This document shows positions 6,439-11,018 of a stretch of DNA of 64,000 nt, piece by piece. The position numbers and the translations under genes are program-made. Position 1 is the first letter of the stretch, and each line of letters starts with the position of its first letter. The DNA is from Psychrobacter sp. GP33 (lineage in GTDB: Bacteria; Pseudomonadota; Gammaproteobacteria; Pseudomonadales; Moraxellaceae), in NCBI RefSeq assembly GCF_014119005.1, contig NZ_JACGYX010000004.1, forward strand, positions 248,001 through 312,000. Reading direction: 5' to 3'. Below the pieces are notes generated by a model. It was not told where the DNA came from. It saw only the letters and a list, made by a program, of their open reading frames with translations, and made no database searches.

Positions 6439-6594
6439 TGAATGTCTCCTAATTTAATAACTTAGCTAATTATTATGATGGTCGATTAACACAGCTTAGC
6501 TTGATGGCATCAATTGACACCGATAAAGTAAATAAGATAAGACTGATTGATGCGCTTATCTTATTCATTGTCAGCTATATTTTTTTACTGACTA

Positions 6595-7017
6595 TTATTC
6601 TTGTTGGTCTAAATCAATAGAAACTGAGTTGATACAATAGCGCATACCTGTAGTCTCACGTGGACCATCAGGGAATACATGACCCAAATGCGCGCCGCAG
6701 TTACTACAAGTCACTTCAGTACGTGTCATGCCTAATGAGTTATCAACGTGCTCATTAATAGCACTGTTATCAATGCTTTGATCAAAGCTTGGCCAGCCGC
6801 AACTGGCATTGAACTTGCTTCCAGAGTCGAATAATTGAGCGCCACAGCCTTTACAGCGGTAGATGCCCTTTGCACTATTATCATTATAGACACCAGTAAA
6901 TGGACGCTCTGTACCTTTTTCGCGCATGACATGATATTCGTCAGCACTAAGACGTTGTTTCCAATCCGCTTCTGTTAATTGAGCGATTTCTTCTTTAGTA
7001 AGTTGACTGTCTTGCAT
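6595..7017 (-). CDS. msrB: Peptide-methionine (R)-S-oxide reductase
   Basis: MsrB repairs methionine-R-sulfoxide in proteins. The 140-residue sequence has the two zinc-binding pairs Cys55/Cys58 and Cys104/Cys107, the motif [17 protein letters not shown], and the catalytic Cys128 in RYCINSVS. It is a single-domain form without MsrA and without a signal peptide, so it is cytoplasmic. ATG 7015-7017 follows AAGGAAAA at good spacing. It precedes the glutathione peroxidase gene on the same strand. Confidence 0.96.
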
Positions 7018-7501
7018 GATTTTTCCTTTTCGAATAAGAATGAGTGTGGAGTTAAAGCCTACTATTTATCAAGATAACGCATTCACGCTTATAGACGCAA
7101 TGCGTTATAACTACTTTTTACCAAATCCCCACGTAGATTTTTACTCTCGTATTTTTATAACTAAAATGACTACCTTTAGAGTATTTATCATACCTTGTAT
7201 TGCTATCTCATCAAGAATAATAAACACGTTTCGAATGAAAGTATATCTTGCATTTTAGAGAGACTTATTACAAAATGTTGCTTGCTTATCATAAAAAATT
7301 GCAATAATATCTTGCAATGAAAGCAGTAAAGCAAGTTTATCTTGCCTTAGCGTTATCAATTAATTTAGAAGTAGATAAGTCACTATTGATAGTAGATACT
7401 TACGATATGTTGAAATGTAAGTGATCACAATAGTGACTCTCATAATGGTGGGTTTGGTAGCATCAAGATTTGCTAAGTTTGCATAAAAGGCTTTAACGAT
7501 T
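7018..7501. other. Divergent regulatory region between msrB and the XRE-AlaA gene
   Basis: This 484-base stretch is AT-rich and shows no convincing gene. A plus-strand frame at 7016-7258 gives a low-complexity product without family features. The main structure is the nested inverted repeat at 7378-7438. Confidence 0.5.
7378..7438. promoter_or_regulatory. Nested inverted repeat upstream of the XRE-AlaA gene
   Basis: The arms AGTCACTATTG (7378-7388) and CAATAGTGACT (7428-7438) are perfect 11-base inverted copies. Inside them ACTTAC (7398-7403) and GTAAGT (7417-7422) form a second pair. The element ends 63 bases before the start codon of a gene whose product begins with a helix-turn-helix domain, so an autoregulatory operator is plausible. 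It could also form an RNA hairpin if transcribed. There is no T-run after it, so a terminator is unlikely. Confidence 0.5.
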
Positions 7502-9226
7502 ATGAATACTGATAAGGATAAGATGGGTCAAGCTCAGCGGTTGGTTCACTTGCGCCGTGAGAAGGGGCTGACTGCCGAGCAGCTGGCACAAGCAATGACA
7601 AAAGCGGGCACTAAGGTCAGTCGCGGTGCTATTTCTAACTGGGAACGTGGCACCAACGGTATTGTTTCCTCAAAGTTGCCGATACTTGCGCGTATTTTAG
7701 GCTGTAGTGAGGGTTATTTATTACGAGGCGATATCAATGCAAATAGTAGTGACGATCGCCCTGTTCATGATGCAAAGAATGCGTCTATCGAAAACAATAA
7801 GAAGGTAACTATGACAACTCTAAGCGATTCAAATACTAAGAATGTAACCCTTGCCGTTCCTACAGATACGCAAGCAAATAGCGATAACACAACAACAAAA
7901 CATAGCCAGGCAAACTCACAAAATAGTTCAACGATGGATGGTAAACCTATGTCTGTTTTAAAAAAATCCGATAAATTACAAAACGTTTGCTACGACATTC
8001 GTGGTCCTTTGCTACAAGCTGCCAATAAAATGGAAGCAGAAGGTCAACGTATTTTGAAGCTCAACGTGGGTAATCCAGCACCATTTGGCTTTGAGGCTCC
8101 GCATGAGATCTTACGTGATGTAGCATTGAATTTACCCGACGCTACTGGTTATTCAGACTCACAAGGTATCTTCTCAGCGCGTAAAGCGGTTTTGCAATAT
8201 TATCAATCAAAAGGTCTGTTATCTGCAGTAGATGTACGGGACGTATATTTAGGTAATGGTGTATCTGAGCTGATCGTGATGACCATGCAAGCGCTCATGA
8301 ATGATGGCGATGAAGTATTGATTCCTATGCCTGATTATCCATTATGGACGGCAGCGGCGAATCTTGCTGGTGGTACAGCGGTACATTATCGCTGTAACGA
8401 AGAAGATAACTGGCATCCTGATATTGAAGATATCAAATCAAAAATTACCAGCAAAACTAAAGGCATCGTGGTTATTAACCCTAATAATCCAACGGGCGCC
8501 TTGTACTCAGATGATATCCTTAAACAAATCATTGAAGTGGCTATCGAGCATGACCTAATTATCATGGCAGATGAGATTTATGACCGTGTGCTTTATGACA
8601 ATGCTGTTCATACGCCGATGAGCACTTTGACAGACGATGTATTAGTATTGTCTTATAATGGTCTCTCAAAATCGCACCGTATTGCAGGCTTTCGTGCCGG
8701 TTGGATGATGTTATCAGGCAAAAAACATCACGCTTCTGACTTTATTGAGGGCTTAAACATGCTGGCCTCTATGCGTCTATGCTCGAACGTGCCGGGACAG
8801 TATGCCATTCAAACCGCAATGGGCGGCTATCAAAGTATGAAAGAGCTGACCTCAGAAAAAGGTCGTTTATTTAAACAACGTGAATTAGCAATCTCTCGTT
8901 TGAATGCCATTCCAGGTATCTCTTGCACTATGCCACAAGGCGCATTTTATTGCTTCCCAAAAATGGATCCTGAAATCTATCCGGTCAAAGATGACATGGA
9001 ATTTATGATGGATTTGTTGAATGAAGAACAAGTTCTGATGGTACAAGGTACTGGCTTTAACTGGGATGCGCCTGATCACTTCCGCGTGGTATATCTGCCT
9101 AACGTTCATGACTTAGAAAACGCCATGGATCGTTTAGATCGCTTCTTTGCTAAGAAACGTCAGCAATATGGTACAGAGAAGCTAGTAAATAAAGAATCAT
9201 CAAAAGCCAAGTCATTAAGTGCTTAA
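7502..9226 (+). CDS. alaA: XRE-type HTH domain fused to alanine aminotransferase AlaA
   Basis: The 574-residue product has an XRE/Cro helix-turn-helix at residues 8-75 (LRREKGLTAEQLAQAM, VSRGAISNWERG). A polar Asn/Ser/Thr-rich linker runs to about residue 149. The complete class I aminotransferase begins MSVLKKSDKLQNVCYDIRGP and matches AlaA, which makes alanine from pyruvate and glutamate with PLP. The Schiff-base Lys390 lies in GLSKSHRIAGFRAGW, and LNVGNPAPFGFEAP and NPNNPTG are typical. Met150 (7949) corresponds to the usual AlaA start. An inner ATG at 7811 (residue 104) has AAGAAGG six bases upstream, so a shorter enzyme might also be made. XRE-aminotransferase fusions differ from the better known GntR-type MocR fusions. 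Confidence 0.9.
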   Translation: MNTDKDKMGQAQRLVHLRREKGLTAEQLAQAMTKAGTKVSRGAISNWERGTNGIVSSKLPILARILGCSEGYLLRGDINANSSDDRPVHDAKNASIENNKKVTMTTLSDSNTKNVTLAVPTDTQANSDNTTTKHSQANSQNSSTMDGKPMSVLKKSDKLQNVCYDIRGPLLQAANKMEAEGQRILKLNVGNPAPFGFEAPHEILRDVALNLPDATGYSDSQGIFSARKAVLQYYQSKGLLSAVDVRDVYLGNGVSELIVMTMQALMNDGDEVLIPMPDYPLWTAAANLAGGTAVHYRCNEEDNWHPDIEDIKSKITSKTKGIVVINPNNPTGALYSDDILKQIIEVAIEHDLIIMADEIYDRVLYDNAVHTPMSTLTDDVLVLSYNGLSKSHRIAGFRAGWMMLSGKKHHASDFIEGLNMLASMRLCSNVPGQYAIQTAMGGYQSMKELTSEKGRLFKQRELAISRLNAIPGISCTMPQGAFYCFPKMDPEIYPVKDDMEFMMDLLNEEQVLMVQGTGFNWDAPDHFRVVYLPNVHDLENAMDRLDRFFAKKRQQYGTEKLVNKESSKAKSLSA

Positions 9227-9274
9227 GCATAAGATGAAAGCGTAACAATGATAACTACCCTATTATAGCTGCCA

Positions 9275-9316
9275 TAAAAAACGCTTATCGACTGAATACC
9301 GATAAGCGTTTTTTTG
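9275..9316. terminator. Bidirectional terminator between alaA and the phosphate transporter
   Basis: ACGCTTATCG (9281-9290) pairs with CGATAAGCGT (9300-9309), with an A-run before and a T-run after. It can serve the plus-strand aminotransferase gene and the minus-strand transporter gene. Confidence 0.88.
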
Positions 9317-9413
9317 TGTCAGATACTTTTGGTTTACGTAAGTTCAAGTTATAAACTGATAACTTGAACTTATAAATATAAGTCTTTAAGATAATTGGTT
9401 TAAAATATATGAT

Positions 9414-11018
9414 TTAGAATATTTGTTTCAAAATCATAAAGCTGACTGCGGACATGATTGCAGCGGCAGGTAGGGTGATTATCCATGCCAATCCAATTGG
9501 TTTCATTAATGCCCAATTGGTGTCTTTATTTACAATACCAATGCCCAATACTGCACCCACTAAAGTATGCGTACTTGATACTGGTAAGCCCATCGTTGAT
9601 GCGCCCATAACCACTGCTGCTGCCGCAAGCTCTGCTGAAAAGCCAGAAGCGGGATGCATTTTTGCTAAGTTTGTTCCAACTGTTTGAATTACTTCCTTAC
9701 CAATGAACCACAAACCTACAATCAGCGCCACGCCAAAAGTCAGCATAACCGCTGGAGGTACAGCTGCTTGTGAGGCAATCTCATTGGTACGAATAACATC
9801 CATAATCGCTGCAAACGGACCAACAGCGTTGGCGATATCGTTTGAACCATGACTAAAAGCAAACGCTGACGCGGTAAAAACCTGCATCCAGCTGAACATA
9901 ATAAAGGTCGCTTTAGTAAGATCTTCTTTATGCTTACCACGGATACTTTTGGTATAAATAAAGGTCGCAAGCCACACTAGCGCGCTTACCATACCCATAA
10001 TCAAGAAGCCATTTAGATTAGTCATATGGCTAGTGACATTTTTGAGCCCTTTAAAGACAACCATCGCCGTCATGACTGCCGCGCCTGCAGCAGCGATAAT
10101 AGGCACCCATTTTTTAAGGGCTTTTAGTGTATCTAAGTCACCACGTTCACGATCAAGCGTATATAGTTTTTGGTAATAATCCGTTTCAAGTTCTTCGATC
10201 GTACAGTCATCGTCTTTATAGATTTCTTGGTCACGCAGCATTGCTGAAGTATAAGATAGCTGTTCTGATTCTGACAAATCAGCTAAGAATATTTTATGCT
10301 GTTCTTTGACACTTTTTTTGCTGTCTTTTAACTCAACTAGGTGTGCTTCTGTTCTATCATTATAGTCAATAATATTCTTTTTAATTTGACCATATAACAA
10401 GTAAGCAATCACGCCGCCAAGCAATGGCGAGATAACCCAAGAGATAGCAATTTGCCCAATCGTTGCCCAATTGATAGTAGATAGCGCCATTTCGCTGCCA
10501 CCCAAATCAAAACCAAGCACAATAGAGCTACCAATTACACCGCCAATAATGGCATGTGTAGTTGAAACAGGTAGTCCTTTTTTGGTGGCAAACAATAGCC
10601 AAAATGCCGCTGCAATAAGTGCAGATAACATCACATAGATAAATTCATTTGGTGTTACAGAGTAACCATCCAAATCAACAATGCCTTTACGAATAGTGTC
10701 GGTAACTTCGCCACCAGCAAGGACCGCTCCTGATACTTCAAATATCGCCGCCACACCGAGTGCTTGCGGAATTGTTAACGTCCCTGCACCGACCGAGGTG
10801 CCAAACGAGTTAGCAACATCGTTACCACCAATATTGAACGCCATAAAGATACCAAATGCGGTAGCTATAACGAACAATAAGGTTTGCTGGTGCATCGTGT
10901 AATCAAGACCCCACCACAAGAAATAAGCGGTCATCCCGACTAATAATAAAGCGAAGAATACATTGACTTTCATAGTACCGATGTTTGCCGATTTTACAGA
11001 CTGATTGCTAATACCCAT
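9414..11018 (-). CDS. Inorganic phosphate transporter, PiT family
   Basis: This 534-residue inner-membrane protein has both PiT (Pho-4) signature repeats: GGNDVANSFGTSVGAG near residue 65 and FSHGSNDIANAVGPFA near 390. Both are followed by PVSTTHA or PVSSTHT segments. Each half has several hydrophobic helices, and a charged cytoplasmic loop (about residues 215-305) separates them. PiT carriers import metal-phosphate by proton or sodium symport with low affinity. The polyphosphate-using kinase lies next upstream on the same strand after a 593-base gap, so the neighbourhood concerns phosphate. ATG 11016-11018 begins a short polar N-terminus before the first helix. Confidence 0.92.
   Translation of the reverse strand: MGISNQSVKSANIGTMKVNVFFALLLVGMTAYFLWWGLDYTMHQQTLLFVIATAFGIFMAFNIGGNDVANSFGTSVGAGTLTIPQALGVAAIFEVSGAVLAGGEVTDTIRKGIVDLDGYSVTPNEFIYVMLSALIAAAFWLLFATKKGLPVSTTHAIIGGVIGSSIVLGFDLGGSEMALSTINWATIGQIAISWVISPLLGGVIAYLLYGQIKKNIIDYNDRTEAHLVELKDSKKSVKEQHKIFLADLSESEQLSYTSAMLRDQEIYKDDDCTIEELETDYYQKLYTLDRERGDLDTLKALKKWVPIIAAAGAAVMTAMVVFKGLKNVTSHMTNLNGFLIMGMVSALVWLATFIYTKSIRGKHKEDLTKATFIMFSWMQVFTASAFAFSHGSNDIANAVGPFAAIMDVIRTNEIASQAAVPPAVMLTFGVALIVGLWFIGKEVIQTVGTNLAKMHPASGFSAELAAAAVVMGASTMGLPVSSTHTLVGAVLGIGIVNKDTNWALMKPIGLAWIITLPAAAIMSAVSFMILKQIF

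Follow-up and report, generated by a model that had tools for sequence, protein, structure and literature searches.

A helix-turn-helix head on the alanine aminotransferase of Psychrobacter suggests a self-regulating enzyme with exchangeable heads

Trigger enzymes such as PutA, BirA and NadR are catalytically competent, bind DNA and control genes of their own pathway. MocR, GabR and PdxR consist of a GntR-type N-terminal DNA-binding domain, a flexible linker and a PLP-dependent body of fold type I with its lysine, and according to PMC5320631 the operators of MocR proteins are direct or inverted repeats. Here we analyse a gene of Psychrobacter sp. GP33, located in a 64,000-nucleotide stretch of contig NZ_JACGYX010000004.1 (the whole stretch analysed, hereafter the window), whose product has the same succession of DNA-binding domain, linker and PLP fold, so that the comparison with MocR drawn in a preliminary description of this DNA was the right analogy. 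The head, however, is not GntR: it is of the XRE type here and StbA-like or of other types elsewhere, and the body looks like a working alanine aminotransferase (AlaA), the only close match to this enzyme in the genome. As proposed below, the fusion would share with PutA, BirA and NadR the pairing of an enzyme with control of genes of its own pathway, but the enzyme is unrelated to those three and its DNA-binding part varies among close relatives. Compared to E. coli AlaA (PDB-code: 4cvq), the enzyme span is the same and about 150 residues are added at the N-terminus.

Among the titles and abstract openings listed from the open-access literature, including those on StbA, trigger enzymes and MocR, none describes this fusion. 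The architecture may already have caught the eye of annotators, since “bifunctional HTH-domain containing protein/aminotransferase” is a label given to some Acinetobacter genes; the phrase led to no paper in the open-access literature. A plasmid-borne copy in A. baumannii is annotated simply as an aminotransferase.

The fusion gene and its conservation in Psychrobacter

The 574 codons of the gene form one uninterrupted frame in the window (Table 1). According to Pfam, residues 17-73 match HTH_3 with 28.3 bits, above the gathering score of 23, and residues 184-545 match Aminotran_1_2 with 201.4 bits; the HTH families listed for the fusion are HTH_3, HTH_19 and HTH_31 only, with no GntR-type winged HTH among them. 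The nearest PDB chains to the head belong to the P22 C2 repressor (E 5e-4), while 4cvq aligns with residues 149-550, nearly the whole enzyme, at E 4e-170. The layout originally proposed, with an XRE domain, a linker and AlaA in the same frame, the usual AlaA start at Met150 and the PLP lysine at position 390, is therefore borne out. Lys390 lies within an NGLSK motif and is a lysine in all 160 distinct homologues aligned. The best of 71 NCBIfam families is PRK08363 (alanine aminotransferase), but its 363.9 bits fall under the curated cut-off of 534, and therefore the name AlaA rests on the 4cvq alignment. The genome contains one such gene, and the next match is 29% identical. In sequence the body looks like that of a working AlaA, for which alanine-pyruvate transamination is predicted.

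Table 1. Coordinates of the fusion gene, its parts and neighbouring features in the window
Feature	Position	Strand	Basis or remark
XRE-AlaA fusion gene, 574 aa	7502..9226	+	single ORF without internal stop; present in all 77 Psychrobacter-titled loci of the 80 listed
XRE helix-turn-helix head, residues 10-76	7529..7729	+	Pfam HTH_3, P22 C2 match, pLDDT, dN/dS
Hypervariable, probably disordered linker, residues 77-153	7730..7960	+	identity 22%, dN/dS 0.68, pLDDT <50
AlaA-type aminotransferase domain, residues 154-552	7961..9157	+	4cvq match; conserved motif positions
PLP lysine Lys390	8669-8671	+	NGLSK motif
Candidate primary operator ATTGCAATAATATCTTGCAAT, 7-bp arms ATTGCAA/TTGCAAT	7298..7318		TTGCAATAATATCTTGCA single in genome; inner 17 bp genus-wide
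Candidate second operator GCAAGTTTATCTTGC	7331..7345		centre 30 bp from that of the first operator
Degenerate third copy or half-site	7234..7254		direct-repeat family D1
Divergent msrB (methionine sulfoxide reductase B)	6595..7017	-	translation; shares intergenic region with fusion gene
Possible internal start Met104, AAGAAGG upstream	7811..7813	+	comparable sites in few close relatives only
ATG of Met150, native AlaA start, inside linker	7949..7951	+	ATG kept in 75/83 Psychrobacter proteins

In a structure prediction the head adopts a five-helix fold with block pLDDT values of 73-95, and residues 79-167, covering the linker, stay under 50. The enzyme part of this model was poor (pTM 0.46) because the alignment was shallow, with only 24 sequences, and it was not used.

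Among the best 80 loci listed, all 77 titled Psychrobacter carry the fusion, and every match begins at query residue 1-10. A comparison of 84 distinct Psychrobacter-type proteins gives 92% identity and a dN/dS of 0.019 for the head, 90% and 0.027 for the enzyme, and a mean identity of 22% with a dN/dS of 0.68 for linker residues 77-149; these dN/dS values are medians of sampled pairs with dS near saturation. All 21 aminotransferase-motif positions that we chose are invariant in 113 of 113 fusions with four head types. They include Lys390, Arg528, Asp357, Tyr360 and Asn329, which we take to be active-site residues in their usual roles, and 16 more; 47 headless AlaA proteins show a few exceptions at the 21 positions, never at Lys390. 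The low dN/dS of head and enzyme together with the invariant motif positions indicates that neither end is decaying. The fusion is real. A chance frame, or the sequencing error raised in the preliminary description as an alternative, fails against its genus-wide presence and the similar purifying selection on head and enzyme, and so does the idea that relatives keep the HTH as a separate gene: with a crude test for a simple HTH-like motif, no same-strand upstream ORF of this kind was found in 46 headless loci.

Different heads in the Moraxellaceae

A match at E <= 1e-80 is present in 194 of 199 genomes of the family, and translation of the loci reveals unlike extensions attached to the AlaA N-terminus at the same place, genus by genus. 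Type (a), the XRE head, occurs in g1 (the genus of the window), g7, g8, g10, g14 and g16, as well as in a named Moraxella catarrhalis copy, by resemblance to which g10 is called Moraxella-like. Type (b), found in Acinetobacter and a neighbouring genus (g15 and g9), is a StbA-like domain of about 57 residues, and a named A. baumannii locus falls in g15. It matches StbA of plasmid R388 (PDB-code: 7pc1) at E 4e-5 alone and at E 1e-16 once the profile includes plasmid relatives; the match to NF041290, at E 0.006, is far under the cut-off of that full-length model. A plasmid relative of this head is located before stbB.

The type (c) head of g11 is 34-36% identical (E 7e-4) to a small protein encoded beside mobC on an IncQ2 plasmid. 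According to PMC3098194, iterated search identifies TraK of RP4 and a MobC of pTF-FC2 type as StbA homologues in a similar location, and because such mob-region proteins are linked to StbA there, type (c) is a plausible candidate for an oriT-region DNA-binding protein. Type (d), in g13, appears HTH-like by eye, and its plasmid relative (38.6%, E 1e-4 with a consensus query) is divergent to a repressor-type gene with an S24 peptidase, which is the position of Cro. Searches of Pfam, PHROGs, NCBIfam and PDB with the heads of types (c) and (d) gave nothing convincing. PMC9723621 concerns ArdK/KorA and is not used as support.

The remaining family genera that were read (g2-g6 and g12) and the outgroups of the order have plain, headless AlaA, which also occurs inside headed groups, namely at one locus of the Moraxella-like genus (L170) and in 33 of 119 Acinetobacter genomes, the remaining 86 being headed. 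A quick enzyme tree was built from 98 rows, with 11 of 72 Psychrobacter-type rows kept; in it, a branch with 100% support separates type (d) from a clade of types (a) to (c). The five head states require 12 label changes on this tree, where many branches are weak and support is too low for counting gains or losses. The matches listed for 293 genomes of the order included no XRE fusion outside the family; those listed for the class, where 31 of 369 genomes passed a strict cut-off, showed no coverage of the StbA head elsewhere, and no such head was found in viral contigs.

Several single records deserve mention. Two Moraxella phage records, Mcat18 (L238:114-1670) and Mcat15 (L239:658-2214), contain an unannotated XRE-AlaA gene near attL, 67% identical to that of the window; the Mcat18 record starts a short way before the gene and lacks the operator motif, which Mcat15 has. 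A locus titled Streptomyces cinereus JCM 3040 (BMPS01000003.1) holds an XRE-AlaA of Moraxellaceae type whose enzyme is nearly identical to that of a family genome (L156), which makes a mistaken title or culture probable. Halanaerobium salsuginis, a distant halophile, has a headless AlaA 62% identical to the enzyme of the window, which suggests horizontal transfer. In Acinetobacter, enzyme-free frames of 121-145 codons match the StbA-type head with 49-53% identity and are possible donors (G878:C2:4713-4886, G084:C6:11078-11266 and G934:C5:11820-12002), and a StbA-head frame at G879:C1:1736599-1736913 spans just 191 codons, so that either the enzyme is interrupted or the sequence contains an error.

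Upstream motifs and their match to the heads

Upstream of the fusion gene lies a palindrome whose inner 17-mer TGCAATAATATCTTGCA occupies window positions 7300-7316. An exact match to TTGCAATAATATCTTGCA is found once in the genome, at the XRE-AlaA gene; relaxation adds one site with two mismatches and 14 with three. The resulting 16 sites, as opposed to 3 with the reversed pattern, leave room for additional weak targets. With at most one mismatch, all 80 Psychrobacter genomes searched contain TGCAATAATATCTTGCA, at 87 sites in total (0 for the reversed pattern), and 73 of them contain it once. Where alaA could be placed, it lies less than 700 bp upstream of the gene in 49 of 50 genomes, with 3 sites elsewhere, and the one exception (G062) has a sequence that ends 182 bp upstream of the head. 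Two GCAAN6CTTGC sites are present in 73 of 83 Psychrobacter upstream regions, and one in the other 10.

The preliminary description had named 7370-7500 for a gel shift, but the likely operators lie further upstream, at 7298-7345. We rejected an operator within 7370-7500, where the perfect 11-bp inverted repeat AGTCACTATTG/CAATAGTGACT (7378-7388 and 7428-7438, 39 nt apart) is confined to the genome of the window, one of 83 Psychrobacter upstream regions. Two Psychrobacter loci (L102 and L023) have the same upstream stretch and both end 182 bp before the head; its outer part looks unlike that of relatives and possibly marks a mobile element between operator and gene. Rfam gave nothing at the gathering score for 6500-9500.

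A comparison of head type and motif was made over 159 distinct loci, after one headless locus with short upstream sequence had been dropped. The XRE motif is present in 79 of 90 XRE loci and 0 of 69 others, the StbA motif in 14 of 14 StbA loci, 1 of 90 XRE loci and 0 of 55 others, and the type (d) motif in 6 of 6 type (d) loci and 0 of 153 others; the 46 headless loci and the 3 of type (c) had none of the three. The 11 XRE loci without the motif comprise L023, which ends 182 bp upstream, and 10 loci outside Psychrobacter. Some of these loci had served to spot the motifs by eye before these were tried on further genomes, so the scans of the 80 Psychrobacter genomes and of the Acinetobacter genomes are the better tests. 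A tree-aware pair test points in the same direction, with one supported independent pair in the Acinetobacter group and three overall, which is below the reach of significance.

The Acinetobacter-type motif AGCAAAAAGTAAGCAA has two TTGC cores 11 bp apart and reads TTGCTTACT-TT-TTGCTT on the other strand. R388 StbA, according to PMC3098194, binds 9-bp repeats TTGCATCAT spaced by 2, that is with an 11-bp period, so that type (b) resembles StbA in both the domain and the core and period of its upstream repeats; it differs in being fused to AlaA, and a role in plasmid stability is not implied. The repeats extend from about 116 bp before the start codon of the head to about -51. In a scan of 119 Acinetobacter genomes, many of them outside the motif discovery set, 72 of 74 decidable headed genomes have a tandem repeat that starts 110-119 bp before the head, and 0 of 31 decidable headless ones have it at alaA. 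At one mismatch or fewer, the two headed exceptions have sites only elsewhere (G137) or none (G881), and for 12 of the 86 headed genomes sites are present with their placement undecided among the sites listed. The 33 headless genomes divide into 17 with no site, 13 with sites only elsewhere and 3 unplaced among the sites listed, one of which (G119) is clear at alaA by direct reading. In an earlier set, a longer form of the motif stood at alaA in 12 of 13 headed genomes (g15 and g9) and in 0 of 9 headless ones.

The type (d) motif ATAGGNAATANCCTAT is found exactly once in each of 7 of 8 genomes, against 2 hits for reversed controls, and this site is at alaA in all 6 genomes with alaA placed. 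In g10, several loci have TGCAAG-N5-CTTGCA palindromes, and a loose XRE motif occurs in 22 of 22 genomes, mostly several times, 3 of them without a headed alaA. A AAATCGGTTAA shared by the three type (c) loci is not claimed as the operator of the mob-region head, as it comes from 3 loci only. At the level of sequence, three of the four head types are thus paired with an upstream motif of their own, the motifs being conserved and in several genera almost gene-specific.

Probable self-regulation and its alternatives

We consider it very probable that AlaA is an autogenous trigger enzyme whose heads bind operators upstream of their own gene and control it. A conserved candidate operator does precede the gene, as would befit a trigger enzyme; the near-uniqueness of the strict sites in Psychrobacter and g13 points to autoregulation, and self-switching is the most likely role because related genera carry different heads, most of them with a matching motif. 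Aminotransferases with the fold of AlaA are generally homodimers, and a homodimer with a head on a flexible linker in each subunit should present two DNA-binding domains at once and so recognise palindromic or directly repeated sites, as MocR proteins do. For DNA binding, dimer geometry, sign of control and ligand we infer the following. The AlaA part would form the usual homodimer and make alanine from pyruvate and glutamate, while its heads would sit on the upstream operators and control alaA, most likely by repression; the divergent gene, which we take to be msrB from its sequence and the A. baumannii annotation, is perhaps under the same control. The state of the PLP site, occupied by substrate or product, probably tunes DNA binding, and the simplest logic would be feedback repression by alanine or the PLP/PMP state. 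The sequences lend support to the original suggestion of a moonlighting regulator with a seemingly intact enzyme; the sensing of alanine, pyruvate or PLP suggested along with it is putative.

Could the head mainly regulate msrB-gpx, and thus oxidative repair, and merely ride on AlaA? The operators lie within the shared intergenic region, a divergent msrB adjoins alaA in 138 of the 151 loci whose upstream sequence is long enough, and of the 9 XRE loci outside Psychrobacter in which no msrB neighbour was detected, 8 lack the XRE motif. This is nevertheless improbable, as the motif is present in two XRE loci where no msrB neighbour was detected, the Acinetobacter repeats are on the alaA side (median 249 bp to msrB), and 40 headless loci adjoin msrB while all three motifs are absent from the 46 headless loci tested. 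A broader regulatory role with many targets, which the many loose matches in Moraxella-like genomes, the 14 three-mismatch matches in the genome of Psychrobacter sp. GP33 and 58 further sites (at most one mismatch) in headed Acinetobacter genomes with listed sites might suggest, seems more improbable still, given a single strict site in 73 of 80 Psychrobacter genomes and one exact site in 7 of 8 genomes of the fourth group (type d). We give hardly any credence to the head as a non-functional relic or a tag for folding or solubility: headless forms do exist within headed groups (L170 and the 33 Acinetobacter genomes), yet the head evolves at a dN/dS of 0.019, unlike heads occupy the same place, and the motifs match head type and are absent from headless loci.

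The remaining alternative, that the enzyme is mainly a short form started at Met150 or Met104 and the long form a minor regulator, is rather doubtful, although a second, enzyme-only product from an internal start is possible on the sequence. The ATG with AAGAAGG at 7811 that the preliminary description had pointed out exists, but only a few close relatives share it, and the widely kept ATG is that of Met150. Sites like that at 7811 were seen in 6 Psychrobacter-type loci representing 4 distinct sequences, namely the window and three relatives, whereas 75 of 83 linkers, for all their hypervariability, retain the Met150 ATG, in most cases with no evident ribosome-binding site before it, and a methionine near the native start is also found in translations with other head types. 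Against a short main product, linker ATGs rarely have a Shine-Dalgarno match of at least 4 (18 of 83, vs. 61 of 84 first ATGs in Psychrobacter-type loci), and a short form would in any case be compatible with autoregulation.

With autoregulation as the preferred reading, the head would be a replaceable module, unlike heads having been gained within one family, apparently from mobile elements. As sources we propose a phage-repressor-like XRE protein, a plasmid StbA-type protein, a plasmid mob-region protein and an HTH-like domain from the Cro position. On balance, AlaA is likely a plug-in chassis that has accepted four unlike, probably DNA-binding heads from plasmids or phages, each with a new private operator that is lost together with the head in headless Acinetobacter. 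Trigger enzymes are usually single cases; here one housekeeping enzyme has apparently become its own regulator repeatedly, with interchangeable heads. The family thus supplies natural replicates in which to study how gene control by enzymes evolves, and its headless members can serve as controls. If the chassis reading is true, there would be strong recurrent selection for feedback by alanine, or by the PLP state, through the enzyme itself, and the family would offer a natural series for the origin of allosteric enzyme-repressors. Our analysis leads us to expect that alanine metabolism in Acinetobacter, Moraxella and Psychrobacter is under a regulator that has gone unrecognised.
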